Positions 4,662-37,137 of a stretch of 64,000 bases of DNA are shown in pieces (the first letter of the stretch is position 1; every line of letters begins with the position of its first letter). A program made the translations under genes and the position numbers. This stretch comes from Salminus brasiliensis. Taxonomy: Eukaryota > Chordata > Actinopteri > Characiformes > Bryconidae. Where the stretch lies: the NCBI RefSeq assembly GCF_030463535.1, contig NC_132878.1, positions 33,916,261 through 33,980,260 of the forward strand. Reading direction: 5' to 3'. The notes under the pieces were generated by a model. That model was not told the DNA's origin, searched no databases, and saw nothing but the letters and a program-made list of their open reading frames with translations.

Positions 4662-4775
4662 TTAATTTAGCTTGATGCAGGCATATTCTGTAGTATCTCC
4701 ATCTTCAGTGCCCATCACTGTGGATGCTGGTGTTGATGCTTTAATGTGAACTACAGTAGAGTACGTCACATCATC
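4662..4775 (-). CDS. Gene A exon 7: ITIM-bearing C-terminus
   Basis: 114 nt including the stop. The peptide starts DDVTYSTVVHIKAS and ends TEYACIKLN. VTYSTV fits the ITIM consensus (V/I/L/S-x-Y-x-x-V/I/L) and TEYACI fits T-x-Y-x-x-V/I (ITSM). The acceptor is CTCCTCCTGCAG. Its partner in gene C (20380-20487) keeps both tyrosines. Confidence 0.88.
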   Translation of the reverse strand, partial: DDVTYSTVVHIKASTPASTVMGTEDGDTTEYACIKLN

Positions 4776-7146
4776 CTGCAGGAGGAGTAAATAAGCAAGT
4801 GTTATTAAGCACACATCTACACAGAGGCAGTACCTACATGTAACACACTCTGGGAATGATACACACCTTTTCTTGGCCTTTTTTTGTTTTTGCTTTGTGA
4901 GTTTATAGTAGCATGCAGCACCTCAGAATTATTCTGCAGGCTTATTACACAGAAAGGTGTATTGCTCAGTAACTACGGGCACTTCTATACAAACTGGTAG
5001 GGAGATTCTTTGGTAATAGAAGTTTGCACTTCTGGCAAGCCTTCAAGTGGCCTAATGGATATGGCACTGACCTTCTAAGCCGGGGATTGGGAGATTGAGT
5101 CCCATGTGGTGTGCAGATGTAGCAGAGTGGTGCAGCGGAAGCGTGCTGGGACCATAACCCAGAGGTCAATGGATCAAAACCATCATCTGCTAGGCTGTGA
5201 ATCTTTTAGGGCAGTGGTGGCTCAGTGGTTAGATCTCTGGGCAATTGATGACAGGGTTGTGGGTTGTGGGAGTTTGACAGTGCTGCTGGCTGCTGTTTAT
5301 GCTAAAGTCAGTTTTCAATATCTGTAATTTATTCTTTAGTGTGTTTTCATTATGGTCAGACTAATGACAAAACCTGAGAAAACTGAAGACTTCACAGAAT
5401 GCTTCGCTGACCACTGCAAGACTGGTGGTGTAAGGATTTGTGACTACTCAGTTGAAAAAATGGACTATCCAGTTTGCCTTCATGATGTAAGCACAGCAGA
5501 AATACAATTTACAGCTATTTTACTAATCCACTGCAGAGAACACACACTTGTGAATTGGGACAATGAGAACACACACAGTAGTAGGCAGTCACTTCAGCAC
5601 ATGTTGTAATGAACCAAGAAGCAGTTGGGGGTTGTATGCCTTTCTTTAAAGCACCTCAGTCATAAATGTTGAGGGAGGAAAAAGCACCTTCATCCCCCCT
5701 GTCCCCTAGTTACTGCTGGTTCAGGGGATTAAACCAACAACTTTACGATTACCATCAGAATTTTCTTAACCTTTACGTCACATCTGTCTTGTATTTAGAA
5801 CTCCTACTCCTGCTACACAGTTGTGATACACTCGAACCAATGCATCACACATTTTTTACATGTCATGGATGGTGTAGATAAGGGATGATACATTCTGCAC
5901 CTACTGAATGTATGATAGATGTGTCTGATAAAATTAGTGTTGCGTGTAAATGCAAGATATGCCACAGGTACCATTCACCTGTTTCTGTGATTCTTCATCA
6001 GTAGGTTCTGATATTGCCGTGTGGCGAAGACCCTCAGAGCAATTCTGCACAAACATAGTGAGATAATCTGTCTTTAAAGAACATTTAATGGCTGTTTTAT
6101 TTAGATTTTATTATTTACACCATTTGAAAACTGATGCACATGATAATAGCAAGACTTGCAGTTACAGTTATGTTAAGAATTTAGACACCCTATGAAAATC
6201 TTTGTCTTTTTTATATATATTTAAGATATATGGACATTTGCTCTTCATTTGAACATTATTGAGAAATGTCAGTAATATAAAACATAAACCTGAAGAAATA
6301 TCAAGTGCCCAGGCCTCCAAAGATTTTGGAGGAACCTGTGTTATTTAAACCTCAGACATTTAGTTTGGTTTGCTCTTGATAGTTGAAGTAAGTGGGATCC
6401 CCATGGTGAGATTCAAAGAGCTTTCTGAGGGCTTAAGAAAGTAGGTTGTAGATGCGGATGAGTCTGGGAAAGAAATCTGCTGTTCCACTGTCCCACACTG
6501 ACCCAAACCTGGACATCTGAAATAATGTGCTTTGGACAAATGAACGCAAAGCTCAATTTTTTAAACATAGTATTAGAGGACATGTTTGGAGTAAACTAGA
6601 CACAGCGTTTGAGCACTAAAACCCATATCAGCTGAGAAGCATGAAGGTGGAAATGTCATAGTTTGGGGCTGCTTTTCTGCAGTAGTAATTTGTTATTGTA
6701 TCAGAGGATGCTTGAGGAAAATATGAGAGCATCTGTCTAAAAACTAAAGCTGAAAGAATTCTGCATGGAGAAGTGGGAAACACTTTCTTCCAGTTGATGT
6801 CAGAGACTGTCTAATTGTTCATCTGAAGAACAATTGTCCAGATGTTTGAATATATTTTAAAAAAAAGTTTTAATGGTGCGTCTTAACATTTTCACATGAC
6901 TGTACAATAAGATATTTACATAGTTTCCCCTTCCTAAAAAATGACTTTTGAAGAGGCATCAACTTTTCTTATGGAGAACTGAAAGATAGACCATAGTGTT
7001 TTTGATCTTACCTGTGTCTCCTGATCTCTCACCAGTCCAGCTTTCCTCTCACACCTCTTCATCTGCCCTTGCCTAGCTGCACAATTAAATTAAACACACT
7101 TACACAGAACTCCAAACACTGTGTGAGCATATGTGAGTGTGGGAAA

Positions 7147-7212
<66 letters not shown>

Positions 7213-9685
7213 ATGTGTGTGTTTCGGTGTGTGCACGTGCATGTCTGTATACCTCTGTAGCTCCAGCAGATGCCTCCGAACACCATCAACAGCAGTAAAA
7301 CCCCCACAGAAGCGCATATGATCAAACTGGAGTTGGCAGCTGGAGGGCCTACAGGAAAAACTGCCTCTGTATGTAAAAAAAAAAGAAAGCTATACCTACT
7401 GTATACATCAACTAATTGTATGTTTTATGATTTTCCTACCCAATAGTAAAGCAAATGTTTTGGTATGTCACATGAAACTGACTTCCCTAAGCAATTTATT
7501 TTTTATTTTTATTTTATTGTTATATAAAATAACAGTTTATCTGCTCATTTTTATGGAAAACACTTGTTGTTGAAGCTTCAGGGGGACAGATGATTTCATG
7601 TCTTCTTGGATTGTTGATTTCTTGTCTTTTAACTACTTATTTATTGTGTAAAGTTACTTTGTGACAACACAAAGTGCTATAAAAACACATTTTATGGGAT
7701 TTGATTATATGTGTGGATGAGTTAATGAAGTAAATACTAACTGTTTTGAGAAGATATTCTTCCTTCTGTAGAAGTGGAAGTGACTGGCCTGGTTGTACAT
7801 TTAATCCCTGAAGTAGTAGTTGCAGTTGGAGCAACTAAAAGAAAAATGCAGAAAATGCAAAAAAGTGTGTGTGTGTGTGTTTTATGTATTTTGTAATTCA
7901 GCATGAACAAGTGCTCAAGCTACATTGTACTGAAACTGCATATTCACTATGGTACATATCAGTGGTGGGTTTTGGCAAGGTTAGGTTTCTGATGGCCTTT
8001 CATTAAGAGGAATTTGCCCTTCAGGAGAGAGGTATCTCACTATGGGAAACACTCCCCGTGTGACCGACCATGGAAGTACCTATGGCACTGCATCTGGCAG
8101 CTAGCTGACAGGCCAATCTCATCAGCGAGGAAGGAGCACCTGCACTTATATAAGCAGATGCAGCTTCCACATTCACAATTCTCAAAGCACACACTTTCCC
8201 AGTGAAGTGCAGTGACGGTGGTGTAGTGAGATACCCCACTTCTGAATCAGAGAACCAGGGTTACAGGGTTTCTCTTTCATCATTTGATCGGTATCTCACT
8301 ATGAAAAAAAGACATAGTCAGCTCCTGTATTACATGCATTCCAAAACAGTCAGAGTCAGATGCAGTGGAAAAAAAGCCAGGGTCGGCCTGCTAGCGGGTC
8401 GAAGGTGTTATTACAAACTCATACCAAATAATAGCCCCACCAGTTTGTACAGAGGTCCCTGTAGTTACTGAGTAATCCTCCCTAGCATGTAATAAGCCCT
8501 GGGGTGTTAAGGGGTTAATAGTAGAATACACGTGTACACACACAGTGCAGCCGCTGGACCTCATTAAAAGAAAACAGCTGAACACTCTAAAGCTAAACAA
8601 GCATAAGCAGTCTTTAGTGGCATGCGCTTAGTGTGCATGCAAGCTGGACACACACAAAAAGTGCAATAACTTGTTTGGCTGATGCCAGTGCGTCAGTAAT
8701 ATCATCTTCACTGAGAGAATTTAAGCTCTACGCTCTTTAGCAGCTCAAAAGATAGGTGCCATTTTATGACAGCTAAACATGCTTGAAAACAACACAGTGC
8801 TTCTGGTTAGTGTAGCAACCCTGCAGCTTAAAAAAACCTTCTGCTTTCTAACTGTTTTGTACAGTTTCACTCTCGCTACTGTTTACACACTGTCAAGTTT
8901 TACTACCATCACCTCTCTTGTGCTCAGCATTACAGCATCCCTGCCTCTTCTTTAGTTTTGGGAAAGGCATCACCCTTCATTCTTAGACCAAATCACCTGA
9001 AGTTTCAATGTATGATTAAATTAAAGGCATTGTCAAAAAACAAAGCTGAACTTTCTCTGTTTCTACTTATGCTAGTTATTGCACTTTACATGTGGCTCAA
9101 ATACTGATTTACCTTTAAAGATGAGTCTGATGTAGACATATTCATTATGTTCAAGATAACACTGATAGTCTCCCCCATCCTCTTCAGTCAGGTGTGATAT
9201 GAGTAGAGAGAGATTAGCTGGAGAGAGATCATTAAACCACTGAACTCTGTCTCTGTACTGATCACTCTCACTGGATATCTCTTTCCATGTGCTTCTGTGT
9301 TTCTTCCAGGTGAATCTCCCAGGTGTGGCGTGTTGATCAGTACAGTAGCAGGGCAGCAGTGCTGATCCTCTTTTGTATGCAATAATCGTATTTGTCTGCC
9401 TCTCGTTTTGCAATGTGCAGCCTGCAGAAATGCAATAATTAATGAGCTTTATTAATTATTCATAAATATGTGGACATCATTTTTATCATTCTATTTTGTC
9501 TTCGATTGTCTTTAACAACCACAAACCAGAAATAATTACTTAAGGTTTTGGGCAGGTCAGATGATAACCAGTCACCTCAATCAAATGTTTTTACCCTTCC
9601 ATTTCTATATTAATATTTGAGTAAGATTTGTACACTCACCTTCAGCAACATGGAGCACAAGCAGTACATAAAAACTCATCTGCAT
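4662..9685 (-). CDS. Receptor gene A: single V-set Ig domain, ITIM-tailed type I membrane receptor
   Basis: Seven exons, read from high to low coordinate: signal 9640-9685, V domain 9113-9421, Ser/Thr-rich stalk 7742-7834, membrane 7253-7366, tail 7012-7076, 5979-6044 and 4662-4775 (stop at 4662-4664). They total 807 nt (268 residues) with one continuous frame and GT/AG at every junction. The product is a cell-surface receptor with a short signal peptide (MQMSFYVLLVLHVAEG), one V domain, a roughly 30-residue stalk, one membrane helix and a tail with VTYSTV and TEYACI. These fit the ITIM and ITSM patterns that recruit SH2 phosphatases, so an inhibitory role in leukocytes is inferred. It is one of four tandem paralogues; its tail is like gene C. 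The family resembles teleost multigene V-set receptors (DICP-, NITR- or CD300-like), but I cannot assign a family name. Exon structure is hand-derived. Confidence 0.85.
5041..5113 (+). pseudogene. tRNA-Arg pseudogene (anticodon position TCT)
   Basis: 73 bases align end to end with vertebrate tRNA-Arg of the CCT/TCT group: the D-arm GTGGCCTAATGGATA, the anticodon region CTTCTAAGCC and the T-arm GAGTCCCA are kept. The acceptor stem no longer pairs (CTTCAAG against GTGGTGT) and the B box reads GATTGAGTCCC. It is a decayed copy inside the last intron of gene A. Confidence 0.7.
5121..5192 (+). pseudogene. Initiator tRNA-Met (CAT) pseudogene
   Basis: 72 bases match vertebrate initiator tRNA-Met with about five substitutions. 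The initiator hallmarks remain: terminal A1-T72 pair, three G-C pairs in the anticodon stem (GGG/CCC) and anticodon CAT. Three substitutions look like CpG decay (GCGC to GTGC, TCGAT to TCAAT, TCGAAA to TCAAAA). Two others break stem pairs: the first T-stem pair becomes A-C, and the last acceptor pair G-A. A T4 run follows at 5203-5206. It lies 7 bases after the tRNA-Arg copy on the same strand. I think it is non-functional. Confidence 0.75.
5213..5290 (+). repeat. tRNA-derived SINE (type 2), head fragment
   Basis: Begins GGCAGTGGTGGCTCAGTGG, the head of the SINE whose body is seen at 32862-33018 and whose reverse-oriented heads end at 29707 and 31468. Only the 5' part is left. Confidence 0.55.
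5979..6044 (-). CDS. Gene A exon 6: tail exon that lacks a tyrosine
   Basis: 66 nt, phase 0. It encodes NCSEGLRHTAISEPTD followed by EESQKQ. The gene C counterpart (22634-22699) reads DCSDGLYCTVLSEPTD. The single Tyr-based site of this exon is therefore lost in A, while the flanks are conserved. Confidence 0.8.
6165..6905 (+). mobile_element. Decayed Tc1-like transposon in gene A intron
   Basis: Terminal repeats resemble each other in inverted order (TTAAGAATTTAGACACC near 6172 and GGTGCGTCTTAACATT near 6876). The interior keeps scraps of a Tc1 transposase, including GGTGGAAATGTCATAGTTTG, the relic of the HGGG...VWGCF region. No frame is open. A second copy in gene D (34240-34525 plus 36672-36800) was split by a LINE. 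Confidence 0.7.
7012..7076 (-). CDS. Gene A exon 5: juxtamembrane tail
   Basis: 65 nt, entering in phase 1 and ending in phase 0 after TGTGCAG as acceptor; the other possible acceptor would put a stop in frame. It encodes a basic peptide containing GQMKRCERKAG and ending RDQETQ. It matches gene C 22787-22854, which has one more codon. Confidence 0.8.
7149..7208. repeat. (AT)n microsatellite
   Basis: About 60 bases of TA dinucleotides in the intron between the membrane exon and first tail exon of gene A. The flanking GT-rich sequence suggests an original GT/AT compound repeat. Confidence 0.95.
7253..7366 (-). CDS. Gene A exon 4: transmembrane segment
   Basis: 114 nt, phase 1 to phase 1. It holds one strongly hydrophobic helix (SLIICASVGVLLLLMVFGG) followed by the stop-transfer residues CWSYR. 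The helix has no charged residue, so pairing with DAP12-type adaptors is not suggested. It is homologous to the gene C membrane exon at 22974-23081. Confidence 0.85.
7742..7834 (-). CDS. Gene A exon 3: Ser/Thr-rich stalk
   Basis: 93 nt, phase 1 to phase 1. It encodes a stretch rich in Thr, Ser and Pro (APTATTTSG, then TRPVTSTSTEG), as expected for an O-glycosylated stalk between Ig domain and membrane. The donor GTTAGT is acceptable. It corresponds to the stalk exons of C (23203-23280) and D (33151-33237), although the sequences are hardly alike. Confidence 0.7.
8014..8310. repeat. Interspersed element of unknown class
   Basis: In the intron between V and stalk exons of gene A. The block starts and ends with GGTATCTCACTATG, about 265 bases apart (8029 and 8289), and holds TATATAAG at 8148 and a stretch AACCAGGGTTACAGGG. 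The terminal direct repeat and TATA-like box suggest a solo LTR or a related element. This is inference; no coding relic is present. Confidence 0.35.
9113..9421 (-). CDS. Gene A exon 2: V-set domain
   Basis: 309 nt, phase 1 at both ends. It encodes an N-terminal GCT, strand B LLPCYC, strand C FTWKK, the membrane-proximal NLSLLISHLTEEDGGDYQC block holding the F-strand cysteine, and ends RLIFKG at the donor. The canonical Cys-Trp-Cys triad of a V domain is present. The extra Cys in CYC and the Cys right after the signal peptide may form a second disulfide. NLS in this block is an N-glycosylation sequon. Confidence 0.88.
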
Positions 9686-10916: not shown

Positions 10917-10919
10917 TAC

Positions 10920-13050: not shown

Positions 13051-13100
13051 TCACGGTTGTTCAACAGCAAGGTTGTAATATGACTCATCAGGATCAGGAG
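13051..13100 (-). CDS. Gene B exon 5: short cytoplasmic tail
   Basis: 50 nt including the stop, entering in phase 1 behind the acceptor TTACCCACCAG. It encodes PDPDESYYNLAVEQP. YYNL is a YxxL signal that could serve endocytosis or SH2 binding. The exon is short, so confidence rests on frame, acceptor and position. Confidence 0.65.
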
Positions 13101-16100
13101 CTGGTGGGTAAGATGAACACAGAGACATTCATTTATCTACAATCTATACTGTAACATGAATTCCTAATAATGCTTCCACACATATGGAAAACAAGAAACA
13201 AAACACCAGTTTTTTGAGTAGTTTGTACCTTTGGTTCTCTTGGTGTGATACACCACAGCTACTATAATGTGGAGAAAGATCACAGTCCCCAAGGCAAAGG
13301 GGACAAAAGGCGGAGTCTGTACAGACTGACCTAATGGTGGGATTCCTGAAATTGTCATGGAAAAAGACATTTGAAGAAAACACTGTTAGTATCAGAACAT
13401 TAAACAAGATAATCTAACATAATAAAAATGGGAAGGGGTACATGTAGGTCCCCTGAGAAAACATTTTACCATCCAATAAAATTCAGAAAAAGCAAGTAGG
13501 TAATATATCACTGCACATCAAACCTTCTTGCACTTTCCATTAAGAATGTAGTATATTAAAAAACATTGGTTTACCATGAACAGTGATCCTGAAGTCTGTG
13601 TATTGATTCTCTTTAACATCACACCTGTATAGTCCTCCATCCTCTTTAGTCAGGTGTAATATGAGTAGAGAGAGATTAGCTGGGGAGTGATCATTAAACC
13701 ACTGAAATTTGTCTCTGTACTGACCACTCTCACTGGACATCTCTGTCCATGTGATTCTGTCTGTGTTGAGTTTTCTCCAGATGAATGTCATAGGTGTGAA
13801 ACTGCAGATAGGGCAGTAGCAGGGCAGAAGTACCGACTCTCCTACATGTGCTATGATGTTCACTGCTGTTTTATAGTTTCCTGCGGGGGCTTCTGCAAAA
13901 ATACATGAATTGTATTGTACATGAATATGGTAAAGTTATTCACATACTCTTTGCGTCTGATATTGTTACACCGAAAAGATTCTGCCACTCCAGTTTCCAT
14001 GGCTGCAGCCAAAGACGCCACCTTACCTCATACTTAAAAAACAAGACAGCTCAAAACAGTGGAATCATCAATCAATCTAGCCTGCTCTACCTCTGTGGCT
14101 GCTCCAGTGCCTGATGCTGTAGGCACTTGGGACTCTGATCAGTCTCTTTCTCATGTGTCAGTCTCTAATTTTCCCTTGTGTCATTTCCTGCTACACAGTG
14201 ACTCCAAATACCTTAGATTCATTTGTTCCTCAAAACCATCCATCCAGCCGTTCCCCTTCTCTGACCGGGACTTCAACTTTTGTGTCTGATTTTGACGGCA
14301 ACTCAGACTCAAACTAATGTGTTAGTCACAAATGAAGAACTTTTAGTCGATTTCAACTGTAATTTTCATATTTATAGTTTTCCATGTTCAATGAATGGTC
14401 TAGTCTGCACAGTGCATATCTACTCAATGCCAACAATGCCAAATTTAGATGCTAATGAGTTTGTATGACTCTGGAATGCCCCATCTCCGTGAGTCATGAT
14501 AGAACACCTATCAAGAAGCGATGAAAGTTTCATTTGGTCTAAAATGAGCAATTATGGGCTAATTTCTATGAGGCATTCATTATTATTTGTTAGACAATTG
14601 TACTAGTAGTGGTAACATGACACTGTTATGCTGGAAATAACCTCTCATGAAAACTCAAAACAGCATATGACTGTGGGCATGACATGTTTATGGAATGGTT
14701 ATGTTAGTGGTAGGTAGCAGGGTTTGAGTAAAGTGTTGCCACATATGATTTGAGTCATTAAATCCAATCAGTCATTCACATAAAATTAGTTTTTAGGCCA
14801 GACGTGCTTGGAACTAAGACTAGCCACACCCAAATGTCTCAATGATCATTTGTAATGTAAGCCATAACAATGTAAACCACGATTGAGCATTTTACCTTTA
14901 ACAGTGAGTCTGAAGTCGATGTATTCACTCCATTCAGCTTCACATCTGTAATCTCCTCCATCCTCTGCAGTCAGGTGTGATATGAGTAGAGAGAGATTAG
15001 CTGGAGAGTGATCATTAACCAACTGAAATCTGTCTCTGTTACTCTCTCTGGATATCACTTCCCATGAGTTTCTGTATGTGATGAGTTTCCTCCAGATGAA
15101 AGTTTTAGGTGTGGTGTGTAGGTCCGTGCAGCAGCAGGTCAAAATTACTGACTCTCCTGTATGAGCTGTGATATTTAATAGTTCAACTCTGCTTACCAGA
15201 GTGCAGCCTGCAGACACACATATGAACATAAATACATGGCTAAGAAAGCTGTGTTTAATGAAGTGATGGTCATAAGTGCATCACTGTACATATTTTAGCT
15301 GTCAATAAGAAATACATGCAATACAGCAATAAGAAAACATGTATCTCCAAACTGATGACTTTACAGGAAGCAAAAATGTTCTTAACTTTGAATGGAAGCC
15401 AGTGTAAAATATAAGTTTATTCCAAGGAATTCAGAACATCTCTATTGGTCCATTTAGTCAGATTTATTTACACAGTGTACAGAGTAGCTACAGGGTTCAA
15501 ACCGACAATACATGGACAGCATTGGACAGCAGCGGTATAAACTTTACAATCATCAAGCAGATCCCATGCCTGCTTAAAATAATGTCTCAAGGTACAAGTA
15601 CAACTATTAGAAAACAAGTTGGCTTTGAAAAAATGCATATATCTACATTTAAGCAATAATGTCATTATTAAGTTTAATGAAAAGTTATTATTATGGTAAT
15701 TAAAACACTTTTACCAGGGTTTTTGCCTGCTTACAACCTACCCACCAGCAGCTATAATAAGCCATGTCTTCTAATGTGAACATTTAAAAGAGTGTAAATG
15801 TCTGTGGCCTGACCAAACTATCCTTGATGCAGTATATGTTTTTCTTTGTTATTTCCCTTGCTTCCAGACCAGGATGTGGTTTTCTATGTTGCAATCACTG
15901 ATTCATAGATTATAGATTAATAAGAGGTTATGACACAATTAATAGGCCGAAAGTGACCTATTGCCTACACATGACTATGTAAACAAATCTACTTTAGAAA
16001 ATGTTTCCTACATTATTTATTAAATATTTTGAAACTTTATGCACTTAGTTAACTAAGTAAAAGAAAATCATCTGTGAAAACATGATGTAAGAAGTAAAAT

Positions 16101-17564: not shown

Positions 17565-17570
<6 letters not shown>

Positions 17571-20379: not shown

Positions 20380-20487
20380 TTAACTTAGTTTGATGCTGGC
20401 ATATTCTATATTGTCTCCAGTGTCCAGTGGTGTAGATAATGGTGTTGGTGATTTAACATGGACTACTGTACAGTATGTCACATCATC
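20380..20487 (-). CDS. Gene C exon 8: ITIM-bearing C-terminus
   Basis: 108 nt including the stop. The peptide begins DDVTYCTVVHVKSP and ends DNIEYASIKLS. Both tyrosines sit in ITIM consensus. The acceptor is CTCTACCTGCAG. Confidence 0.88.
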   Translation of the reverse strand, partial: DDVTYCTVVHVKSPTPLSTPLDTGDNIEYASIKLS

Positions 20488-25312: not shown

Positions 25313-25351
<39 letters not shown>

Positions 25352-27582
25352 TTGTCAAAAAATGCATGTGTAAAGCATATCCTTCTTCAAGGGGTGTCTC
25401 AAAGTGCAAATTAACCTTCCCGACTGTACAGGAAGTCCAGGAGTAAGAACTGCCAATTCTCTAAATTCAAAGTGTCCTTTTTGTAGCATTTTGAACCTTT
25501 TTGGCACCCTGCAGAAATTCGAGCAAAAAAGCAACAACTCTCTCATTTTTGGTTTTCTTACATTGTTCGGCAATTCATGATCCAAAATAGGAGCTAAGGA
25601 CTGACAGTGCTGAGCAATATTAATTCTTATTCTAATTCTAATTCTAAATTATAAAATACTTTTTACCTTCAACAGTGAGTTGAATGTATGTGAGTCCACC
25701 ATCCTTAACATCACACATGTACACTTGTCCATCCTCTTCAGTCAAGTGTGATATGAGTAGAAAGAGATTAGCTGATGAGTGATCATTAAACAGCTGAACT
25801 CTGTCTCTGTACTGATCACTCTCACTGGATATCACTTCCCATGTGTTTCTGGTTGTGTTGTATTTCTTCCAGGTGAAAGTCTCAGGTATGGCGTGTAGGT
25901 TGGCGCAGTAGCAGGGCAGCAGCACTGACTCTCCTGTACGTGCTGTGATATACTTTGTTGCATCACGGTTTCCTGGAGTGCAGCCTGCAGAAAAACACAC
26001 ATGATTTTTGTTTACTTTTTACTGTCAAAATGTATGACCCTTTTGTTATGCATCCAATAAGCCCCCCTGGAATTCTGAACATTGCCTTAACGAGAAGTGC
26101 TGCGAAGGTTCCATTAAAATCTGCAATCTGTGTTCTGGTAAATATTACAAAATAACTCCTTACTACAGAGATAGGGATTACTGTACTGTACTATACTGTG
26201 CTATTAGGATCACATAACTGGTTAACCTTTGACCACAGCTCAGTTTTAAAGCTAATAAAATGCTGATATCAAGGCTATCTATATGCAATACTAAATTATA
26301 TTACCAAACAGATGATGGAGAAAAACAAGAAGATAAATGTCCTGCTGTTTGATCTCACTTTGGTGAGTTTTTCTTTTTATTTACACAGAAATACAGTATG
26401 AAAGTCTGGCATACATTGGCATATATCAGAACCATCATAAAAACTGTGTATGTGGGTTTTAAGACATTTCTTCTTATTGGAGAGGATGGTTGGTGAGTGA
26501 GACCCATTTGTTTGCAAATCCTAATGCATTTTTTACCCTGTTATTCGTAACATAAAAAATCAAACATTCAAATTAATCAGCGTCTGGATCTTCCCTTAAC
26601 CATTTTACAAGTGTGGTCCCACTGGATTATGCTTTGTGTTCCAGAAAGCATGCGCAAATCATATGCTTATGATGTCTTGTTGCTCACTAAACCATTGTGA
26701 AAATGTTCAGATTAACCAATGCTGCTTCTGGTAATTTAGTCTATTTCTTGACATAACCTTGGCAGATTTCTGCCATAGAATCCAAAATGCAGTGCAGTGC
26801 AGGTGTCATAATCATTGTAAGGTGGAACTTTATGCTGAGCACAGTTAACTTAGGGCTAACTTTATATGTTATTTATTTATTTATTATGTTATCTTACAAT
26901 GTTTTAAAACACTTTGCATCATTCATTTTAGTATAATATAAGAATATAAGAAGTCATCATGTGACATTATTAAAGTGCATACATTGATTATTAATTATCC
27001 GCTTAAATAGCCTATGGCTCACCAGTGGTGTCATTATAAACACCATATTTATTATATTTTATACATACATACATGTTATATTCATATTTATTACCAAGAA
27101 AACAGCCCCACCACTTTGTCCAGACGTCCCTGTATTACTGAGGAATAAATAGTATTGTGTAATAAGCCTATCTGCATTAAGGGGTTAATGAAAAAATACC
27201 ACAGGTACAATTTATCTGGTCTGCATGCGCAGCCTGCTGTTAATCCCCCCATGATGTAGAGTAGAAGCTGTGTAATGATCACTTTCTATAACTTCAGCTG
27301 AGAAGTTACTCTAGGTAGACCATTATAGATAGCCAGAACTTAATTGCGAAAGGGTTCACAAATTACGTGTTTCATTAGGAGAAGATGGGAAGATGTAAGA
27401 GGTAAGATGTCAACCAGGCTGCTTTGACCCATTCATTTATGACAAAGTGTACCTCATCTTGCCCTGTCTCTGATCTTCTAATACATTATAAAATATGTTG
27501 GAGTTCCTACAGTAGAAAAGAAAGCTTTACACTCACCTTCAGTGATATGAAGCACAAGCAGTAGATATAAACACATTGTCAT
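20380..27582 (-). CDS. Receptor gene C: two V-set Ig domains, ITIM-tailed
   Basis: Eight exons, high to low: signal 27537-27582 (MTMCLYLLLVLHITE), V1 25667-25984, V2 24634-24948, stalk 23203-23280, membrane 22974-23081, tail 22787-22854, 22634-22699 and 20380-20487 (stop at 20380-20382). Total 1107 nt, 368 residues, one frame, GT/AG throughout. The start was set at the first of two in-frame ATGs because it gives the same 46-nt exon as A, B and D. The tail has VTYCTV and IEYASI, both fitting ITIM, plus LYCTVL in the middle exon, a Tyr site with Gly at -2. An inhibitory role through SH2 phosphatases is inferred. The tail and membrane exons pair with gene A. A further 45-nt exon at 20572-20616 is possible. 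Confidence 0.85.
20572..20616 (-). CDS. Possible extra tail exon of gene C
   Basis: 45 nt, phase 0 on both sides, behind a good acceptor (GTTCTTACAG). It would encode HNRELLYNDDAAQEK. The donor GTCTGC is weak. Gene A keeps the homologous donor end near 4864-4880 but not the acceptor half, so the exon is either specific to C or an unused relic. Confidence 0.35.
21195..21411. repeat. Long near-perfect fold-back hairpin
   Basis: Two arms of about 90 bases (21195-21286 and 21321-21411) are reverse complements with only a few mismatches around a 34-base loop. Both arms contain TATGACAGTTGTCATGAAAG or its complement. It lies in the intron between tail exons of gene C. A fold-back MITE is the simplest reading. 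Confidence 0.8.
22205..22476. repeat. MITE-like relic and L2-like LINE 3' end with (ATCTT)n tail
   Basis: 22205-22325 has GGTTCTTTAATAG ... GAAAGAACCC complementary ends typical of short fish MITEs. 22395-22476 reads GAATTTCCCCACTGTGGGAC, then ATAAAGGATT, followed by five TATCT units, the 3' terminus of a LINE with pentanucleotide tail. Confidence 0.55.
22634..22699 (-). CDS. Gene C exon 7: tail exon with a tyrosine site
   Basis: 66 nt, phase 0. It encodes DCSDGLYCTVLSEPTDTSEQ and then ER. Tyr with Val at +3 resembles an ITIM, but Gly at -2 falls outside the consensus. Gene A lost this Tyr. Confidence 0.8.
22974..23081 (-). CDS. Gene C exon 5: transmembrane segment
   Basis: 108 nt, phase 1 to phase 1. 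The helix reads PYYFIFAAVGGLLLLIIVGA and is followed by FQRHR. It is homologous to gene A 7253-7366. Confidence 0.85.
24634..24948 (-). CDS. Gene C exon 3: second V-set domain without in-frame ATG
   Basis: 315 nt, phase 1 at both ends, open throughout but with no methionine codon in frame, so ATG-based ORF calling skips it. It encodes GCTLNDNKK, then VLLPCYCTDLQTTPERFTW, SLLISHLTKEDGGEYSC and a TDIKLTIEG end. Acceptor TTTCTGCAG and donor GTAAAA match the sister exons. A 68-base block (24819-24886) is identical to the gene D V exon. Confidence 0.87.
25315..25349. repeat. (CT)n microsatellite
   Basis: About 34 bases of CT dinucleotides in the intron between the two V exons of gene C. Confidence 0.95.
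25667..25984 (-). CDS. Gene C exon 2: first V-set domain
   Basis: 318 nt, phase 1 at both ends. It has GCT at the start, strand B VLLPCYCANL, strand C FTWKK, and ISHLTEEDGQVYMC with the F-strand Cys. The sequon NLS of the paralogues is NLF here, so that glycosylation site is lost. Confidence 0.88.
25985..27536. other. Gene C intron 1
   Basis: About 1.55 kb, AT-rich. A reverse copy of the short dispersed element lies at 27090-27190. No other exon is visible. Confidence 0.5.
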
Positions 27583-28650
27583 TGTTGCTGAGCTCTGAAA
27601 CTCCAACACTGCAGCCAACGGAACCACAAAACGCATACTACACTCTTCAACCATGCAGTAACCACAAAACCCTAGTCTACCACACCCTAATGTACACAAA
27701 GTTTGTCTCCCACACACACACTGACTTGGCACAATAGTATCCTGTGTGTTGTCACATTACTCCTTCCTCTTTTTCTCTTTTAGCACATGATATGCCAAAT
27801 TTAAGGACATGTGGTCATTTACTAGATTCTTTGCCATAGACATGCAACTTTAGAACTCCCTACCTTGCAGTTTCATCTTGCTGGTGTATGAAATTATTTA
27901 CTTCAAGTCACCTCAAGTCAACCCTCTTTTTTCCCCTTTATTTCCTTACTTTCTGTTCTCTCTCTATCTGTTTTGCATGTTGTGTGTGGTGCCCTGTTTC
28001 TCCTACTGTGTCCTAATGTTCACTCAGCCTGGCTCTCCACTGCCCTGCTGTGTTACAGTTCTACTCTGGAGTTCTGCAGTGATCCACTAATACCACACTC
28101 CATTGCTATACATACACATACACAGAATAAGAACAATGTACAGTCATATCAAATTTATTTGCCTTATCACACTTTACAGGGTCCAACAGCGTTACAGTAT
28201 TTCAGGATACTTCACCATGTCACATTGGACAGCATGGAGCAGCTTTGCAGTTACATTCCAAGGTGCTAGAATTAATTATTGAGAAGTATGGCTGACAGTG
28301 TCAGCCTTTTGTGTGGTTCTTCTAATCTTCTGACTAGACAAGCGTTTGGCTGAGGTCACAGTTGAGTCAGCTGATGATTGGAGAGCTCCTGATTTGCAAG
28401 TGATGCTAAAAGATAATTTTGCTGCTATGAGCTCTTTATATCATGTTAAAGGATTCCATATCAGTTCAAGAAACAGACTTAAAAATAGAGAACTAAACAA
28501 TTTTATTATATAAAGCCTACTCACAGACTATGCAAAAGAAATGAAATTCAGAGGTTGGTTTAGAGGCATCATGTGGAGATTGAAACACAAAGACAAAAAT
28601 ATAAAGATATTCTTCAAAAGTTTGTAATTTTTCAGCACTGGAGGTCTGTT

Positions 28651-28715
28651 CTACTGCAGATTTACTACTCCATCTTCATCAGTACTGATGTGGTGAACAG
28701 TAGCAGGACCTGACT
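28651..28715 (-). CDS. Gene D exon 5: short tail
   Basis: 65 nt including the stop, entering in phase 1 after TTACCCACTTAAG. It encodes SGPATVHHISTDEDGVVNLQ. The acceptor region resembles that of the gene B tail (TTACCCACCAG), which supports the call. Confidence 0.62.
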
Positions 28716-31700
28716 CTTAAGTGGGTAAAATGCAAAAGAAAATGTTAGGATGTGATACACTGTAAAGTAAAATAAACAATACATTCATTCACACACAGAA
28801 AAATAGTAGCAAAAGTAGAATGACTTGTATGTGATATAATTTGTACCTTTGGTTCTCTTGGTGCAATAGACCGCAGCTACAATGACATGGAGAAAGATCA
28901 CAGTCACAAAGGCAAAGGGGATGAAGGGCAGAGACTGTGGAGAACCTGCAATAGTAATAGACAGGGGGCATTCTTAATAATGTCATTGTAATAGTTTAGT
29001 TTAGTACTTTTTTAATGTTCAGATATTACATTATTATATTAGAGTTATAGGGCTGTTTTACTGGGCAAGGATTAATCTTAGTTTTGAGTTTATTTATATA
29101 TTTTGAATGAAGATTTTCCCTTGAAAAGTATAGAAATATAGTCCAATACTTGGCTAAATCTCTGTCTGGGAAACCAGGCCATAGTTCTAAAGGCTAACAA
29201 GACATCACACATATACGCACACACAGCAAAAAAATAAGCCTTGTTGGCGAAATTATTCTTAAATAATAGTGCAACTATTGTTGATGAAACAATATATCAC
29301 TTTTTGTTAGCTGACATTTACATTTTGTCAAACATTACATGATCAAGAACCAATAAATTGCCTTGTGTTGTGACAAAAATCTTGATACATTCACAAAATA
29401 TTCATCCTTCTTATGTTATTATTTTTTTTTCTTTCCAGGGTTTAGTTCCAACAGAGCCAACATAGCTCATAATGATAGCAAACACAGAAATGCTGAAGAT
29501 AGAGGAGGTCTTTTGCTGTTACTTTTTTGAGGTAATGCTGGTGGAAGGCTCAGTTGACGTTATATGATTGATTTCACTGACAAAACGTTGGACTAGGTTT
29601 TGAAGGGGCAGAAACATGGTGTAAATATATATAACCTTCAACACAATGGAGACCATTTATGGCAGTTCAGTTCGGAGCTCTAACCGCTGAGCCACCACTG
29701 CTCCTTTACAGAATCTTCGAGACTCAGTTCGGAGCTACAGTCTTCAGTTGGACCACACGGTAAAAAATAAAATGTTTTAAAAACAATAAAATGTAGAAAG
29801 AACTTGACACCCTGTCTCCTTCATTACATTCTCTTATATGTGATTACTGGACAGGTATTAGCAGATATCCCATTGTACTAAATTACTCCAATAATGTTCC
29901 AGTCCAGTAATGGATTGACTCTACACTGAATGTAGACCTGAATGTCAGTTACAATGTTCAAATCCACATGTAGCAGTGAGTAGGATATGCATGATATGGC
30001 TTCAAGCACTTCTCTCATGGTCCAACACTCTCAAAGACCACTGCCTGACAAATGACTGATAAGACTATGGACCACTAACTGACTGACTCAATCTAAAGCT
30101 ATATCTATATCCTTTGCTATAGCTAAAATTATTTACATAATGTTGCAAGAAACATATTCATAAGCAGTGTCTGTGTTTTTCTGACTATACTTATATAGGG
30201 GTTGACTTAGTAAACTTAGTTAACTTAGTTAATTTATTAAATTGAGCAATGTCTGGAATATAAACAGTCAGCAAGCAAATAAATATTAGTTTGTATGCCA
30301 CAGTACAACATTTGCACTGCATTAGTTGTAGCTGCCATGAGTTGCAGCACTCAGAACATGAAATAAAAAAAATCTGGATATTGAAATTTGGATTTCATTG
30401 ACTTTTATTGTTGTGGCCAGTTTGACTAACTGCCTGAATGATTCTGGTGTTAAACACAAAGAAACTGTTTTTTTTTATTATTATTATTTTTTAGGTTAAG
30501 AGATGAAAAGGGCAAATTTGACATAATTTCACACAGAAATGGGCCGGACAAGATAATTGGCACCTTTTAAAATTGTAGGTACAAAACCTCTAAATAATAT
30601 TTCAAACATGTGATGCTCATTTGAACTCACCTGTGGCAGGTAACAGGTGTGGGCCATAAAAAAACTCAGATAAAAAGGAGAGAAGTTGACTCTGTGTGTC
30701 TGTGTGTGCCACATCTCCAGAGATCCAGAGATCTTGATGTTCCTTTGTCCACAGTGCGCAACATAATCAAGAAGTTTACAACCCATGGCATTGTACCTAA
30801 TCTCCGTGGACGTTCGCAGTTTGTCAAAATGTACGTGAGTGAGCCAAAATCCTCCTGGGAAAACGTCTTGAGGACAGATGAGACCAAGATAGAGCTTTTT
30901 TGGTAAAGCACATCATTCTACCGTTTACCGAATACATAAATGTGTAAAAGAAAAAACTTCAAAGGTGCCAACACTTTTGGCCATGACTGTATAACGCACG
31001 TTGGTTCAGTTAATTACGTCTTTGGGTTGAACAGAGAGAGCTGTTGTGGCTCTTTCTGAGGTGGAAAGGGGATGTTGGGCAACTTTGCCAGTGGTCAGAC
31101 ACACATAAGTAAGTAGTGTCAGTATTGCAGCATTGAAATCATGACAATGACATTATCCTTTGCTATAGATGTGACAAAGCCACATTTTAGTCTAACAAAT
31201 CAGTTTTCAACAAATTGTCACTTCAGCTTTGCTAAAGTCATTAGCACAAATTAAAGAGAGGGAAGCATGACTAATCACAACCACAATGAAGTTGTAATGC
31301 TGGTGGAAGGCTCAGTTGACGTTATATGATTGATTTCACTGACAAACGTTGGACTAGGTTTTGAAGGGGCAGAAACATGGTGTAAACATATATAACCTTC
31401 AACACAATGGAGACCATTTATGGCAGTTCAGTTCGGAGCTCTAACCGCTGAGCCACCACTGCTCCTTTACATAGAGAGCTGTTGTGGCTCTTTCTGAGGT
31501 GGAAAGGGGATGTTGGGCAACTTTGCCAGTGGTCAGGCACACATAAGTAAGTAGTGTCAGTATTGCAGCTTTGAAATCATGACAATGACATTAAAAGCCA
31601 CATTTTAGTCTAACAAATCAGTTTTCAACAAATTGTTACTTCAGCTTTGCTAATGTCATTAACACAAATTAAAGAGAGGGGAGCATGACTAATCACAACC

Positions 31701-34700
31701 ACAATGAAGTTGTTCAGTAAAAAGTCATTCAGAGTGGGTTTGGTGCAAAATGGTTAATTGTAGAGAAACTTGCAGACTAATTCATTCTTTATAGTGGTGG
31801 TAATAGGAACCAGGGATCACCATGGCTGCAGATGTATACACACATATTTGATGAGTGGTAAAACATATAAGAAGGAATTTAATTTGCCCATTCTGAAAAC
31901 GAGCAGATGATGAACAAACAAGTGATAATAAGTGAATAGCACACCGCAACTTGCCCTTGTTTACATTGGATTTCCATAAAGCACACATGTTTCTATAGTG
32001 AGCCAATAAAAAAGATTTCAGGTGGCACATTAGCCAATAACTGTCCTCATAAACAAAGGTTAAGCACAGCACCATCTGCTGGCCAGAACAGTGTTAAGAT
32101 TTGGAGAATTGGAATTTGACTTGTTCTGAGAGCAAAGAGAGGCCCCAGTCAGTATTAGTGTAGTGTTCCTAATCAAGTGCTCAGTAAGTGTACATCGTTT
32201 TTCAGACAGTTAACTGAAGGCTGCAACTGGAGCTACACTTTGACCACATTTACACCTGGTCACTTCATGCATCTTAAGTATCAGGGTTATATCTGGATAA
32301 GTGTAAACACATCCAAGACTCAACTAACACAGATAAAACAACGACCACTCAAACCACTTACAGCAGGGTAAACACATTCTGCAACCAAAACCCCTCCCAG
32401 TATAACCCAATCAGCAGTAATAACTGCCATGCAATGAGCACATTTGCATATTCCATCCCACACAGTGACTCAAAGATGCATTTGACTACCAAGTGTAAAT
32501 GCATGTGGCTAAAGTCTTAACAGGATACAATCCAGATACTAGTCACTCATTGCTGGTTGATTCATCCACAGCATCCCCCGCGGGCACTGTCCAGCATAAT
32601 CTGGTAAAATTACTAGTACTGTCAACTTGAAGATCTGTTTTATTTGTAAATGATACTTCAGACCCTTTGTACTTTGGTCATAAACAAACTCACTGTTGCG
32701 GTATCTGGAAAGTTTTATAGATTGTCAGTGGAACCAGCCAATTAACAGCAGTGTTTAAAATAATGAGAAGCTATGGTTTCAGAGTCATGGCAATAGCACA
32801 TGAGTAATTGTGCCTCGGCTGTGTCTGTTAATTATTTGTGAATGCATTTACATATATTTCCCGGGCTCGGCAAGCTGCCACTGTTGGGCCCTTGAGCAAG
32901 GCCCTTTACCCTCTCTGCTCCCCGGGCGCTGGAGTTGGCTGCCCACCGCTCTGGGTGTGTGTGTACTCACTGCCCCTAGTTCACTTTACCTTTACCTTTA
33001 CCTTTACCTTTACATATTAACACACTATTAACATATTATTGTGCTATAAATGCATTATTAACATACTGTTAAATAATTACAGTGCTGTAAAATACTAATA
33101 TCAGTAAAAAAAAAAAAATGAAAAAGTCTGTGATTGGAATCTGTAATTACCTTTTTGAGAAGAGTTTGTTGTTGTAGACTCAGTGAAAGGTTTCAGTGTG
33201 ATTTCAGAAGTTGGACCAGGTGTTTGAGGTGAGGCCCCTGCAAGAGTTTGCAACATTGTGGGTGATCTGTTGCTGGACGTCTATTCTGAATGGATACATT
33301 TGAGGGAGAATATTTATAATAGTATTCCAGCACCTCAGTTGGTGTTTCTAAATCTAGTTCTCAATGATAGAACTCTAAAATGTGATAACGAGACAGTAAG
33401 GTTGGTTTCTAAGTAATTTAGCTTTTTTATGCAGGATCACATTTTAACAGAGAAATGGTCTGAACATGTAATAGGGAGAATTCCCTCACTGTCATTGCTA
33501 TGGTGGCCAGGATAATGTTCACGAGAACTACTGCACTGCTTCAGTCCACATGCTTCTTTCACTTTTTTAGTGATGCTCTCAGTCTGCCCAAAAAAATGTG
33601 TCCTCTAGTAGTGCCTCAAAACATAAATTATACTTCTTAGCGGTAGGAAGAGCCCAGGGGCAAGAAATGCCACTTTTCCATAGTGTTGCTTTAAGGCAGA
33701 GAGCATTTCCTAGAGGAAATAGTGTTGTACCTGTTACAGTGAAGATGTAGTATCTGTATTCTTTCATCTGAAGATTACACCTGTATAGTCCTCCATCCTC
33801 TTCAGTCAGGTGTGATAAGAGTAGAGAGAGATTAGCTGGAGAGTGATCATTAACCAGCTGAACTCTGTTTCTGTACTGATCACTTTCACTGGATATGTCT
33901 TCCCATGTGTTTCTCATTGTGTATTTCTCCCAGGTGAATCGCTCAGGTGTGGTTTGTAGGTCAGTGCAGTAGCAGGGCAGCAGTGCTGACCCATCTATGT
34001 GTGCAGTAATGTGTTTTGTCTGTCCCTGGTCTTCCAGTTTACAGCCTGCAGAAACAACACTGATCAGTCAGGACTGTTAGAGTTACAAGGCCTTCATTAA
34101 AGCCATGCCATAAATGTCCAAAGCATCACTTAATATGTTGTAAAATGTTCAATATTTTCCTTAAACTAATACAATGTTCATGGATTTAATAGGAAATAAA
34201 TCTTAACAATGGAACACAACTGTTACTAATATGTGTAGGTTTACATACAGCCATGTGAAAACCTTTTTCTTTTTGCTATACTTAAACACTTCACTTGATC
34301 AATATTGGGATATATAGTTGATATAACTGAACACATACAACTAAAGAAATGTCTTCTAAAATCTGTGAAATGTAGTTAATGTATTTTTTACTTTTATTTT
34401 CTCTGTGAGGAAAAGTTAAGACACTGCCATAATTATAAATGCCAAACTTTAGAATCAGATGCAGATGATTAGAACATCATTAGAGGGGTTATTTAAACCT
34501 CAGACATTTAGTTTGTTTTGTTCTTCAAATCAAATCAAATCAAATCAAATCAAATCAAATCAAATCAAATCAAATCAAATCAAATTTTATTTGTCACATA
34601 CATAGTCATACACAGTATAACTTGCAGTGAAATGCTTTTATGACAGTCTGCCCACATCAAGCTATACAATAAAAATCTACATTTAAACTTAACTAAACCT

Positions 34701-34889: not shown

Positions 34890-34954
<65 letters not shown>

Positions 34955-37137
34955 GTACATATTTATCTGTATGTGAGTGTATGTGTGAGTTAAAAAGAAA
35001 TATTTTCATTATTGTCCGTAGTGTGTTTTCCGTGAGCCATGGTTGTGTATTGTAGTGAGTGAGGGTCCAGTTTGTGTATGTAGATACTTTGATTTAGTGT
35101 CCTAGTCCCTGTCCCCATTCAAGGCACAGATGGCTTGTGGAAAGAAGCTCCTCCTCATTCTCTCTGTGTTAGCCTTCAGGGTCCTTAAGCGTTTCCCTGA
35201 GGGCAACAGAGAAAACAGTCCATTGTTGGGATGACTGGGGTCCTTCACAATCTTCTTGGCCTTGGTCCAACACCGCTTCTTGTAGATGGACTGCAGGTCA
35301 GGAAACTCCATCCTAGTGATTCGCTCTGCTGAACGTCTCACTCGTCGTAGCGCTTGCCTGTCCTGCTTGGTGCTGTTCCCAAACCAGACTGTGATGTTCC
35401 CCGTGAGGATGCTCTCGATGGTGCAGGAGTAGAAGGATCGTAGTACCTTGGAGGGCAGTCTGAAGTCCCTCAGTCGTCTCAGGTGGTATAGGCGCTGACG
35501 AGCCTTCTTCGTTATGGTGTTGATGTGGCAACTCCATGACAGATCCTGAGAGATGGTCACTCCAAGGTATTTGAAGCTTCCTACCCTATCCACCGCCGTA
35601 CCACTGATGTGGACAGGTTGGTAGCTCCTCTGCTGTTTCCTGCTAAAGTCCACAATCAGCTCCTTCGTTTTGCTGGCATTTAGCTGGAGATTATTATCCT
35701 GGCACCAGTTCTCCAGGGTTCTAATCTCTTCCAGGTAGGCCTTCTCGATATTTCCTGAGATCAGGCCCACCACAACTGTGTCGTCAGCAAACTTAATGAT
35801 GTTGGTGGAGCTGGAAGTGGCTTTGCAGTCTGAGGTGTACAGCGAGTACAGCAGAGGGCTAAGGACACAGCCCTGAGGGGCTCCGGTACTGAGGGTGAGG
35901 GTGGGTGAGACATGCTTGCCTACCCGAACAGCTTGTGGTCTGTTAGTCAGGAAGTTGGAGATCCAGTCACAGATGGATGGGTGGAGACCTAGATCTTCCA
36001 GCTTTGTGGTGAGTCTTGAGGGAATAATAGTGTTAAATGCTGAACTGTAGTCCACAAACAGCATTTTAACATAATTACCCCTCCCAGCATCCAGATGTGT
36101 CATCGATGTGTGGAGAAGGTGAGCGATGGCATCATCTGTGGAACGGTTTGGACGGTATGCAAACTGAAACGGGTCCAGGGTGTCGGGCAGCGTGGATGTG
36201 ATGAAGTCTCTCACCAGCTTCTCGAAGCACTTCATCACGACTGATGTGAGGGCGGCTGGGCGGTAGTCGTTGAGGCAGGCTGGCTGTGGTTTCTTCGGGA
36301 CAGGAACGATGATGGACTGTTTGAAGCACGATGGAACAATCCCCTGCGTCAGTGAGCGATTGAAGATGTCCGTGAATACCGGGGCTAGCTGATCTGCACA
36401 GGCTTTTAGGACTCGACCACAGATGCCATCGGGTCCCGCAGCCTTCCTGGTATTCACTCTTCTGAACACCCGCCGTACATCTCTCTCTGTGATGGTGAAG
36501 GCTCTTTGTTCTCTGACGTGCTCCTCTATATCAGCTGTGCCGGTGTTACTGTAGTTAACGTTGCCGGCTGCAGCATCAAGGCGAGCATAAAAGGTGTTTA
36601 GCTCGTTCGCCAGAGATAAGTCTGCACTTCCCAGTCCACAGGGTGGGCTCCTATAGTCCTATAGTCCTATAGTTCTTGATTGGTAAAGTAAGTGTTATTA
36701 CCATGGTGAGATCTTTTTGAGATCTTTCTGAGGCCTTCCGAACATCAAAAACATTATTTTTTTTCAATAATTAGATTTGTGTCTTTAAAAGGGCAGAAAA
36801 ACATTTTTGCTTCAAAAGGTAGTCCAACAAACTATTGATTCATGGGGTGTTCTTAGTTTTTCACACATAAAACCATTGCATTCAAATTTCACATATCAGT
36901 CCACCAGGTTTGCCTAATAAGTGTATTTGCTACATGCAAGTTGTAAAATATTGGGTGTATGTGCAACTCTTGCTGTAAAGGTTCTTCACATATCAGACAT
37001 TGCTTTCACAAACATGGTTCTTCATGAAACCAAAACTTGTTCTGTTATAGCACTGTTTTATAAGTGTACAGTAGAAGAGATTCACACTCACCTTCAATAA
37101 CATGGAGCACGAGCAGCAGATACCAACACAACTGCAT
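28651..37137 (-). CDS. Receptor gene D: single V-set Ig domain, short tail
   Basis: Five exons, high to low: signal 37092-37137 (MQLCWYLLLVLHVIE), V domain 33731-34045, stalk 33151-33237, membrane 28847-28945, tail 28651-28715 (stop at 28651-28653). Total 612 nt, 203 residues in one frame with GT/AG junctions. The stalk is Thr/Ser/Pro-rich (SPQTPGPTSE, ESTTTNSSQ). The tail (HHISTDEDGVVNLQ) is short and acidic and has no tyrosine in the last exon, so ITIM signalling is not possible; the only tail-side Tyr is AVYC at the membrane border. The 3.0-kb first intron hosts a LINE and the 4.2-kb third intron hosts local duplications. Gene C starts 1.07 kb downstream. Other members of the cluster may lie elsewhere. 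Confidence 0.8.
28847..28945 (-). CDS. Gene D exon 4: transmembrane segment
   Basis: 99 nt, phase 1 to phase 1. The helix reads LPFIPFAFVTVIFLHVIVAA and is followed by VYCTKRTKG. It is nearly the same as the gene B membrane exon. Confidence 0.85.
29531..31714. repeat. Local duplications in gene D intron 3
   Basis: A block at 31027-31294 is repeated at 31469-31714 with small changes. A second block, starting GTAATGCTGGTGGAAGGCTC and ending in a reverse SINE head, sits between them (31295-31468) and also at 29531-29703. The order is therefore Y, then X-Y-X. A Tc1 relic lies between the first Y and the rest. Confidence 0.8.
30380..30996 (+). mobile_element. Decayed Tc1-like transposon
   Basis: The 3' end reads GTGCCAACACTTTTGGCCAT then GACTGTA, a typical Tc1 terminus. 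The interior keeps scraps of transposase: DVPLSTVRNIIKKF near 30736 and ENVLRTDETKIELF near 30860, the latter around the first catalytic Asp. Most of the middle is deleted and the 5' border is uncertain. Confidence 0.7.
32862..33018 (+). repeat. tRNA-derived SINE (type 2) with (TTTACC)n tail
   Basis: The body reads CGGCAAGCTGCCACTGTTGG, then CCCTTGAGCAAGGCCC and GTGTGTGTACTCACTGCCCC. It ends in five to six TTTACC units at 32985-33013. The head is missing at the 5' border. Confidence 0.75.
33151..33237 (-). CDS. Gene D exon 3: stalk
   Basis: 87 nt, phase 1 to phase 1, with acceptor CTCTTGCAG and donor GTAATT. Rich in Thr, Ser and Pro; a probable O-glycosylated spacer. Confidence 0.72.
33731..34045 (-). 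CDS. Gene D exon 2: V-set domain
   Basis: 315 nt, phase 1 at both ends. It has GCK at the start, LLPCYCTDLQTTPERFTWEK, then SLLLSHLTEEDGGLYRC and an end FTVTG. It is closest to the second V domain of gene C, with a 68-base identical block at 33916-33983. The only in-frame Met is internal, so ATG-based calling finds only the C-terminal half. Confidence 0.87.
34526..36671 (-). mobile_element. LINE inserted in gene D intron 1
   Basis: A minus-strand non-LTR retrotransposon with a 5' truncation near 36671. Its 3' UTR includes a GT/AT compound microsatellite (34888-34948) and ends in twelve AAATC units (34526-34585). The flanks share the 6-base string GTTCTT (34520-34525 and 36672-36677), a likely target-site duplication. 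It sits inside an older Tc1-like relic also present, uninterrupted, in gene A around 6375-6385. Confidence 0.85.
35102..36469 (-). CDS. LINE reverse transcriptase (5'-truncated)
   Basis: An open frame of 455 codons from an internal Met, with the frame open further upstream to about 36640. Motifs in order: RKAAGPDGICGRVLK and NDYRPAALTS (RT blocks 1-2), FVDYSSAFNTI (block A, catalytic Asp), STGAPQGCVLSPLLYSLYTS (block B), IIKFADDTVV (block C with the catalytic FADD), and FKYLGVTI further on. The C-terminal HPNNGLFSLLPSGKRLR...RRSFFPQAI block matches L2-like elements. The endonuclease part is absent. The lack of stops suggests a fairly recent insertion, but the truncated copy should not be able to move by itself. 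Confidence 0.9.
   Translation of the reverse strand: MFRRVNTRKAAGPDGICGRVLKACADQLAPVFTDIFNRSLTQGIVPSCFKQSIIVPVPKKPQPACLNDYRPAALTSVVMKCFEKLVRDFITSTLPDTLDPFQFAYRPNRSTDDAIAHLLHTSMTHLDAGRGNYVKMLFVDYSSAFNTIIPSRLTTKLEDLGLHPSICDWISNFLTNRPQAVRVGKHVSPTLTLSTGAPQGCVLSPLLYSLYTSDCKATSSSTNIIKFADDTVVVGLISGNIEKAYLEEIRTLENWCQDNNLQLNASKTKELIVDFSRKQQRSYQPVHISGTAVDRVGSFKYLGVTISQDLSWSCHINTITKKARQRLYHLRRLRDFRLPSKVLRSFYSCTIESILTGNITVWFGNSTKQDRQALRRVRRSAERITRMEFPDLQSIYKKRCWTKAKKIVKDPSHPNNGLFSLLPSGKRLRTLKANTERMRRSFFPQAICALNGDRD

Follow-up and report, generated by a model that had tools for sequence, protein, structure and literature searches.

The 64-kb stretch of Salminus brasiliensis DNA analyzed here (the window; G000:C1:33916261-33980260, within the searchable genome) carries on its minus strand four V-set receptor genes, A to D. 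They make up one of the two arms of a locus that spans about 143 kb (C1:33.810-33.953 Mb). Taken alone, the window reads as a set of inhibitory/activating pairs. The interpretation of its genes changes because the plus-strand arm of the same chromosome is now included: A and C are better read as inhibitory receptors, beside which B and D would be attenuated or decoy relatives, a reading to which we give a probability of about 0.6. The exons, given here with their exact limits, the tails, and a candidate tract of conversion can all be tested.

Rebuilding the gene models yielded four complete genes whose exons are bounded by AG and GT, the immunoglobulin (Ig) and membrane exons being in phase 1 and the tail exons that carry immunoreceptor tyrosine-based inhibitory motifs (ITIMs) in phase 0. 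A first-pass annotation of the window had proposed four complete models on one strand, in the transcription order D, C, B, A and with 1, 2, 2, and 1 V domains, and strand, order, domain numbers, and outer limits (4662-37137 of the window) were all recovered; the spliced open proteins count 215 (A), 280 (B), 320 (C), and 174 (D) residues. On the minus strand throughout, gene D consists of a leader exon (37092..37137), a V-set exon (33731..34045), a stalk and membrane exon of the B/D type (28847..28945), and a short tail exon devoid of tyrosine (28651..28715). In gene C, the leader (27537..27582) is followed by two V-set exons (25667..25984 and 24634..24948), a stalk and membrane exon of the A/C type (22974..23081), two cytoplasmic exons (22787..22854 and 22634..22699, the latter in phase 0), a weak candidate for a further cytoplasmic exon (20572..20616, donor score -0.1), and the ITIM tail exon (20380..20487). 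Gene B comprises a leader (17342..17387), two V-set exons, the second of which lacks the N-terminal cysteine (14896..15207 and 13575..13892), a B/D-type stalk and membrane exon (13229..13345), and a short tail exon (13051..13100; DPDESYYNLAVEQP). Gene A comprises a leader (9640..9685), a single V-set exon (9113..9421), an A/C-type stalk and membrane exon (7253..7366), cytoplasmic exons 1 (7012..7076) and 2 (5979..6044, in phase 0 and without tyrosine), and the ITIM tail exon (4662..4775). Besides the models themselves, the leaders rest on a pattern scan, the V-set exons on Pfam and a V profile, the membrane, first cytoplasmic, and ITIM tail exons on shuffle tests of homology, the short tail of D on a tail profile, and the second cytoplasmic exons on an A/C comparison with shuffles.

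The earlier count of 25 exons has to be lowered to 22 coding exons plus the weak candidate in C. Twenty were in the first models, and the other two are the second cytoplasmic exons of A and C, which the earlier reader may have missed. Both measure 66 nt, are in phase 0 with AG and GT borders, and agree at 45 of 66 positions, a similarity equaled by none of 1000 DNA and none of 2000 protein shuffles; with this exon, C gains a third tail tyrosine (GLYCTV). In comparisons of whole gene bodies, similarity was confined to exons and short adjacent stretches, apart from a few repeats. The leader pattern scan of the minus arm retrieved only the four modeled leaders, two of which also start at a second in-frame ATG.

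The two pairs of genes differ in their tails. Gene A displays VTYSTV and TEYACI, gene C VTYCTV and IEYASI, gene B only YYNL, and gene D has no tail tyrosine; the ITIM consensus (S/I/V/L)xYxx(I/V/L) is fitted by VTYSTV of A and by both motifs of C. The membrane, first cytoplasmic, and tail exons of A and C, as well as the membrane exons of B and D, each scored above all 500 shuffles, which bears out the proposed homology of the A and C ends. That of B and D is shown for the membrane exon but not for the tail exons, whose score was reached by 58 of 500 shuffles. The two membrane types had been called unrelated, and indeed the four cross-type membrane pairs were matched by 216, 488, 120, and 497 of 500 shuffles. 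Further attempts to connect the tails failed. Comparison of the B and D tails was equaled by 400 of 1000 DNA and 1094 of 2000 protein shuffles, and the B tail scored -4.3 bits against a profile of D-type tails, a value reached by 1447 of the 1464 shuffles scored (2000 were made). As a worn ITIM tail, the D tail gave a weak DNA signal against A (11/1000) and none against C (597/1000), with 605 and 854 of 2000 protein shuffles as good against A and C, respectively. A relationship of the short tails to cytoplasmic exon 2 of A, suggested by two DNA comparisons (4 and 8 of 1000), was supported neither by protein comparison nor by C.

What had been annotated as a cluster of four genes is in fact one arm of a larger locus. 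By profile search of 204 kb around the window, 18 further V exons, some of them partial, stand on the opposite strand to the left of the window genes, beside the six of the minus strand. This plus arm (G000:C1:33810231-33910645, plus strand) also contains seven B/D-type membrane exons detected by profile, at 33826622, 33835244, 33854755, 33861731, and 33867481 and, more weakly, at 33882201 and 33910401, and a single ITIM tail, at 33815687 (QVMYSTIVH, NIEYATIRLN). Five plus-arm leaders found by pattern are of a slightly different kind (e.g., MLLSFYLLFIGLHVSE). Searching the genome with the second V domain of C (C V2) gave at least 63 matches at E-values up to 1e-3, with 150 of the 230 candidates scored. 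Among the matches listed, its closest relatives outside the window occupy 33.813-33.881 Mb of the plus strand; the second array of this V family, at 36.99-37.03 Mb, is more distant. Both arms most likely encode the type I V-set receptors of a single multigene family.

D-type tails stand after most plus-arm B/D-type membrane exons, and a broader tail profile added two more, at 33830258 (with a broken frame and stops) and 33883002. The tails labeled S1 to S4 read GPARVLYINVNGDGMVSQE, GPARVHYSTADGVVRLE, AQSDPARVLYSPADGDGVICLE, and ATSDPFTTVHYSTADGDGVIILE, respectively, S5 contains VYYSTV, S6 VHFSNE, and S7 VHFSTS. Five of these seven open D-type tails, D's own not among them, have a tyrosine motif, VxYxx(A/V); it conforms to the ITIM consensus in S1 and S5 and ends in alanine in S2, S3, and S4. 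At the same site D reads VHHIST, with histidine in place of tyrosine. Since five of seven relatives keep the tyrosine, the tail first described as short and non-inhibitory is, in most relatives, a single-tyrosine tail; D has no tyrosine, and the tail of B is another one. The idea that the D tail is a hemi-immunoreceptor tyrosine-based activation motif (hemITAM) without its tyrosine (DEDGVVNL) was given up because the relatives have their tyrosine at another place. Two plus-arm genes look damaged, one with the stop-bearing D-type tail (L035:3998-4086) and the S7 gene with a membrane exon apparently out of frame (L043:4081-4382), and both are probably pseudogenes. Six V exons precede the 33854755 membrane exon, and no leader was found by pattern between 33831364 and 33858481; the gene ending there may perhaps encode a six-domain receptor.

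By profile and by predicted fold, the V exons of A to D can be placed in the V-set Ig superfamily. Their Pfam V-set scores (33.7, 73.9, 69.1, and 33.7 bits for A, B, C, and D) all exceed the curated cut-off of 26 bits, and an AlphaFold2 model of C V2, built from a six-row alignment, reached a mean pLDDT of 87.3. In structure searches this model fell among V-set domains with no clear favorite, within search sets outside which other families may still match. A profile of the six V exons run against both strands of the 64 kb retrieved exactly these six and no V-exon relics, the next match having an E-value of 0.019 over 22 profile positions. Cysteines of the window V domains occupy positions 2, 25, (26), 27, and 88-91, except in the second V domain of B (B_V2), where they are at 25, 27, 30, and 91. 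Across both arrays, 42 of 43 V domains (a 51-residue partial one left out) have the cysteine at position 2, and both cysteines of the CxC are kept in 41 of 43, counted by eye because the search pattern missed five of the 43 rows. The absence of the first cysteine from B_V2, together with an additional one at position 30, hints that positions 2 and 27 pair. One plus-arm V domain (L037:846-1163) has lost the canonical strand-B cysteine (LLPSSCTD) and retains the second of the CxC. Positive selection on the C-C' stretch was not supported (pN 0.186 vs. pS 0.090, with an interval that includes zero). Around codons 60-85 there is a synonymous trough (permutation p 0.0065 to 0.0455, depending on window size), which may reflect constraint or repeated conversion.

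The relationships among the genes suggest that V domains and tails have been reshuffled. Duplication of a two-gene module, as put forward in the first-pass annotation, predicts the groupings A/C and B/D in every part of the genes. That split is rejected by the V exons of the window (p-AU 0.020), a result that becomes borderline when columns 64-140 are removed (p-AU 0.057). Over columns 64-143, C_V2 and the V domain of D (D_V) are 98.6% identical, which ranks first of the 210 pairs formed by 21 V exons (one partial and two divergent exons being left out), and the same pair ranks 149th in columns 1-63 and 65th in columns 144-327; amino-acid identity between the two is 69.5%. The tract (columns 64-140) corresponds to 24813..24886 in C and 33910..33983 in D, both on the minus strand, with coordinates derived by hand. 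Such a tract would be expected if an ITIM gene and a short-tail gene had undergone gene conversion or swapped a portion of the exon. Upstream, C and D have in common a segment of about 50 nt (27732..27780 and 37354..37402, minus strand) for which none of 300 shuffles was as good; A/C (41/300) and B/D (48/300) do not have it in common. Both the V exons and this segment thus tie D to C and not to B. In turn, the membrane exon of B is nearest to that of plus-arm S2 (92.9%) and least similar to that of D (83.3%, the lowest of six comparisons). Trees of the membrane exons, which had been named as the test that could refute the module, grouped A with C, and a clade of B with D was not rejected (p-AU 0.106, 84 columns). 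Duplication of a module is thereby weakened by the V exons, the upstream segment, and the B membrane exon, and the alternating gene order is in itself a weak sign, as two of the six possible orders of two plus two genes alternate.

In our preferred reading of A and C as inhibitory and of B and D as attenuated or decoy relatives, the V domain of A or C would bind a ligand. Src-family kinases would act on the tyrosines of the phase-0 tail exons, which stand in VTYSTV and TEYACI in A and in VTYCTV and IEYASI in C (plus GLYCTV, should the extra exon be used), and the phosphorylated tails would recruit SH2-domain phosphatases. Genes of the second membrane type, to which B, D, and the majority of the plus-arm genes belong, would not be adaptor-coupled activators. 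Their usual short tail, with one VxYxx(A/V) tyrosine near the membrane, would make at most a weak single-motif regulator, and this form may also be the ancestral state of the short tail. D, with histidine at the tyrosine site, would be a signaling-dead decoy competing with C, and B has a tail different from the usual one. Passing a stretch of V sequence between C and D would leave them with partly similar binding faces, and possibly a shared ligand, while the domain ends and tails diverge.

Several observations weigh against this reading. Every exon of A to D is predicted, and some donors score weakly on our home-made scale (A membrane exon -0.6, B and D membrane exons -0.1, D V exon 0.0). Support in the V tree is modest, the best branch having 94/93 and none being starred, and a tree of 35 V domains, among them 12 of the second array's 20, shows the locus as nearly a star and does not reject a single clade of the six window domains (p-AU 0.139). 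A run test on the 21 V exons, which ignores rate variation along the exon, gave p 0 of 500 for all 14 best pairs, with most of the runs falling within the conserved columns 156-266. As constraint is an alternative there, the tract at 64-143 is the only informative one. In addition, a decoy D and a decaying D look the same in this analysis.

Decay would mean that B and D have no stable function and belong to a cluster in which genes come and go. The missing tail tyrosine of D and the missing common tail of B fit such an account, as do the stop-bearing tail at 33830258 and the S7 membrane exon of the plus arm, but B and D retain full open frames, in-phase splice sites, and polyadenylation signals 115 and 143 nt past their stop codons, and we regard general decay as unlikely. 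Nor do we put much faith in B as a direct activator, in which DPDESYYNL would signal as a hemITAM through Syk, or its YxN would recruit Grb2. Acidic residues do precede YxxL, a YxN is present, a hemITAM consensus of DGYxxL after a triacidic stretch is described in PMC3819593, and PMC11643160 proposes a hemITAM-like motif in FCRL3, an Ig receptor. However, B has a serine and a second tyrosine at the expected DG site and so does not read DGY, and since none of the D-type tails is related to that of B, conservation of the motif cannot be judged.

Classical pairing, with B and D as activating partners that oppose A and C through an adaptor bearing an immunoreceptor tyrosine-based activation motif, is the explanation that the window by itself suggests. 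As in the KIR, LILR, PILR, and SIRP clusters (PMC3533184), ITIM and short-tail genes adjoin and have similar ectodomains, here exemplified by C_V2 and D_V. Activators described in that source, however, carry an arginine or lysine in the membrane segment; a charged residue was found in none of the four membrane segments of the window and in none of the 11 of the whole locus, and adaptor-coupled activation, which needs a basic membrane residue, is therefore disfavored. The tyrosine motif in five of seven other open D-type tails also speaks against it, and we consider classical pairs very improbable. Of the pairing first proposed, the tandem of ITIM and short-tail V-set genes stands; a reading as inhibitory and activating pairs is disfavored.

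NITR and DICP are teleost Ig families with ITIM members, and NITRs feature a J-like motif (GxG) and an I-type second domain. The window V exons end without a J-like GxG, and the second domains of B and C match the V-set. Among sequences with solved structures, the best match to the window V domains is pIgR (whole-chain E-value 2.8e-12; best single domain 19 bits, six-row profile). CD300, according to PMC3031540, has two cysteine pairs and a WCR in strand C, whereas none of the six window V domains has a cysteine after the strand-C tryptophan; carp SITR, treated in the same paper, differs in lacking a membrane region. In organization, the genes resemble the NILT genes of teleosts, including salmon (PMC3022915): a single V-type domain or two, phase 1 for the Ig exons and phase 0 for the ITIM exons, a 46-nt leader exon in most listed genes, and clusters in both orientations with transposable elements in between. 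NILT V domains nevertheless have a CX3C, CX6C, or CX7C pair and NILT genes a connecting-peptide exon, whereas here there are an N-terminal cysteine and a CxC, and the stalk and membrane share one exon, with no connecting-peptide exon modeled in A to D. Beyond this genome, 67 pattern matches to the V alignment in viral contigs and 63 in prokaryote contigs were obtained, none of which tblastn confirmed. In literature text whose coverage leaves out most subscription papers, scara5, immunoglobulin, teleost, and ITIM occurred together in no one paper and four short family motifs were not found, by which the family is not shown to be unpublished.

The second array, about 3 Mb away (G000:C1:36994681-37036520), consists of nine leader-V-V cassettes in tandem, two of them with a third V; there are nine leaders and two types of V domain, one with nine members and the other with eleven. 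Its repeats are mostly about 95-99.5% identical, and it ends in a single stalk, membrane, and ITIM region, matchless elsewhere in the 254 kb compared. This arrangement may reflect splicing of cassettes to one tail, secreted copies, or an assembly artefact, and its layout is comparable to those of the UGT1, protocadherin, and chelicerate Dscam clusters. If the nine V-V cassettes do share one membrane and ITIM region, cassette choice would be a means of diversifying an inhibitory innate receptor and would put this kind of gene layout to a new use. We suggest tentatively, and with more doubt than conviction, that the whole represents an unnamed, probably teleost Ig family, marked by the N-terminal cysteine and the strand-B CxC, which would diversify through transfer of V sequence and tails from gene to gene and not by making activating partners, and whose second array would permit cassette choice.

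PU.1-like GAGGAA sites occur on the minus strand at 17662-17676, 27760-27774, and 37379-37393, 192-289 nt upstream of the B, C, and D start codons. Against 300 shuffles, the B site was beaten by 1, that of C by 11, and that of D by 5, and A, with no site, by 141; as the weights were set by hand and the idea was post hoc, these sites are a lead only. Frames at 56629-56823 and 63211-63669 (plus strand), without Pfam match, resemble what we take to be early SCARA5 exons, and 40868-41455 (minus strand) presumably belongs to a SAM-domain-like gene, with all its Pfam matches below threshold; both neighbors are possible synteny anchors. An open reverse-transcriptase frame lies in the first intron of D (35102-36658, minus strand; RVT_1, E-value 3.3e-30), a UnaL2 LINE 3' element at 44622-44675 (plus strand), and a long open transposase frame of the Tc1/Sleeping Beauty type at 61164-62339 (plus strand). 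Rfam marked a tRNA-like stretch at 5121-5192 (plus strand), and ARAGORN found no tRNA. Repeated sequence near 4939-5015 is met with again at 8422, 27092, and 44103.

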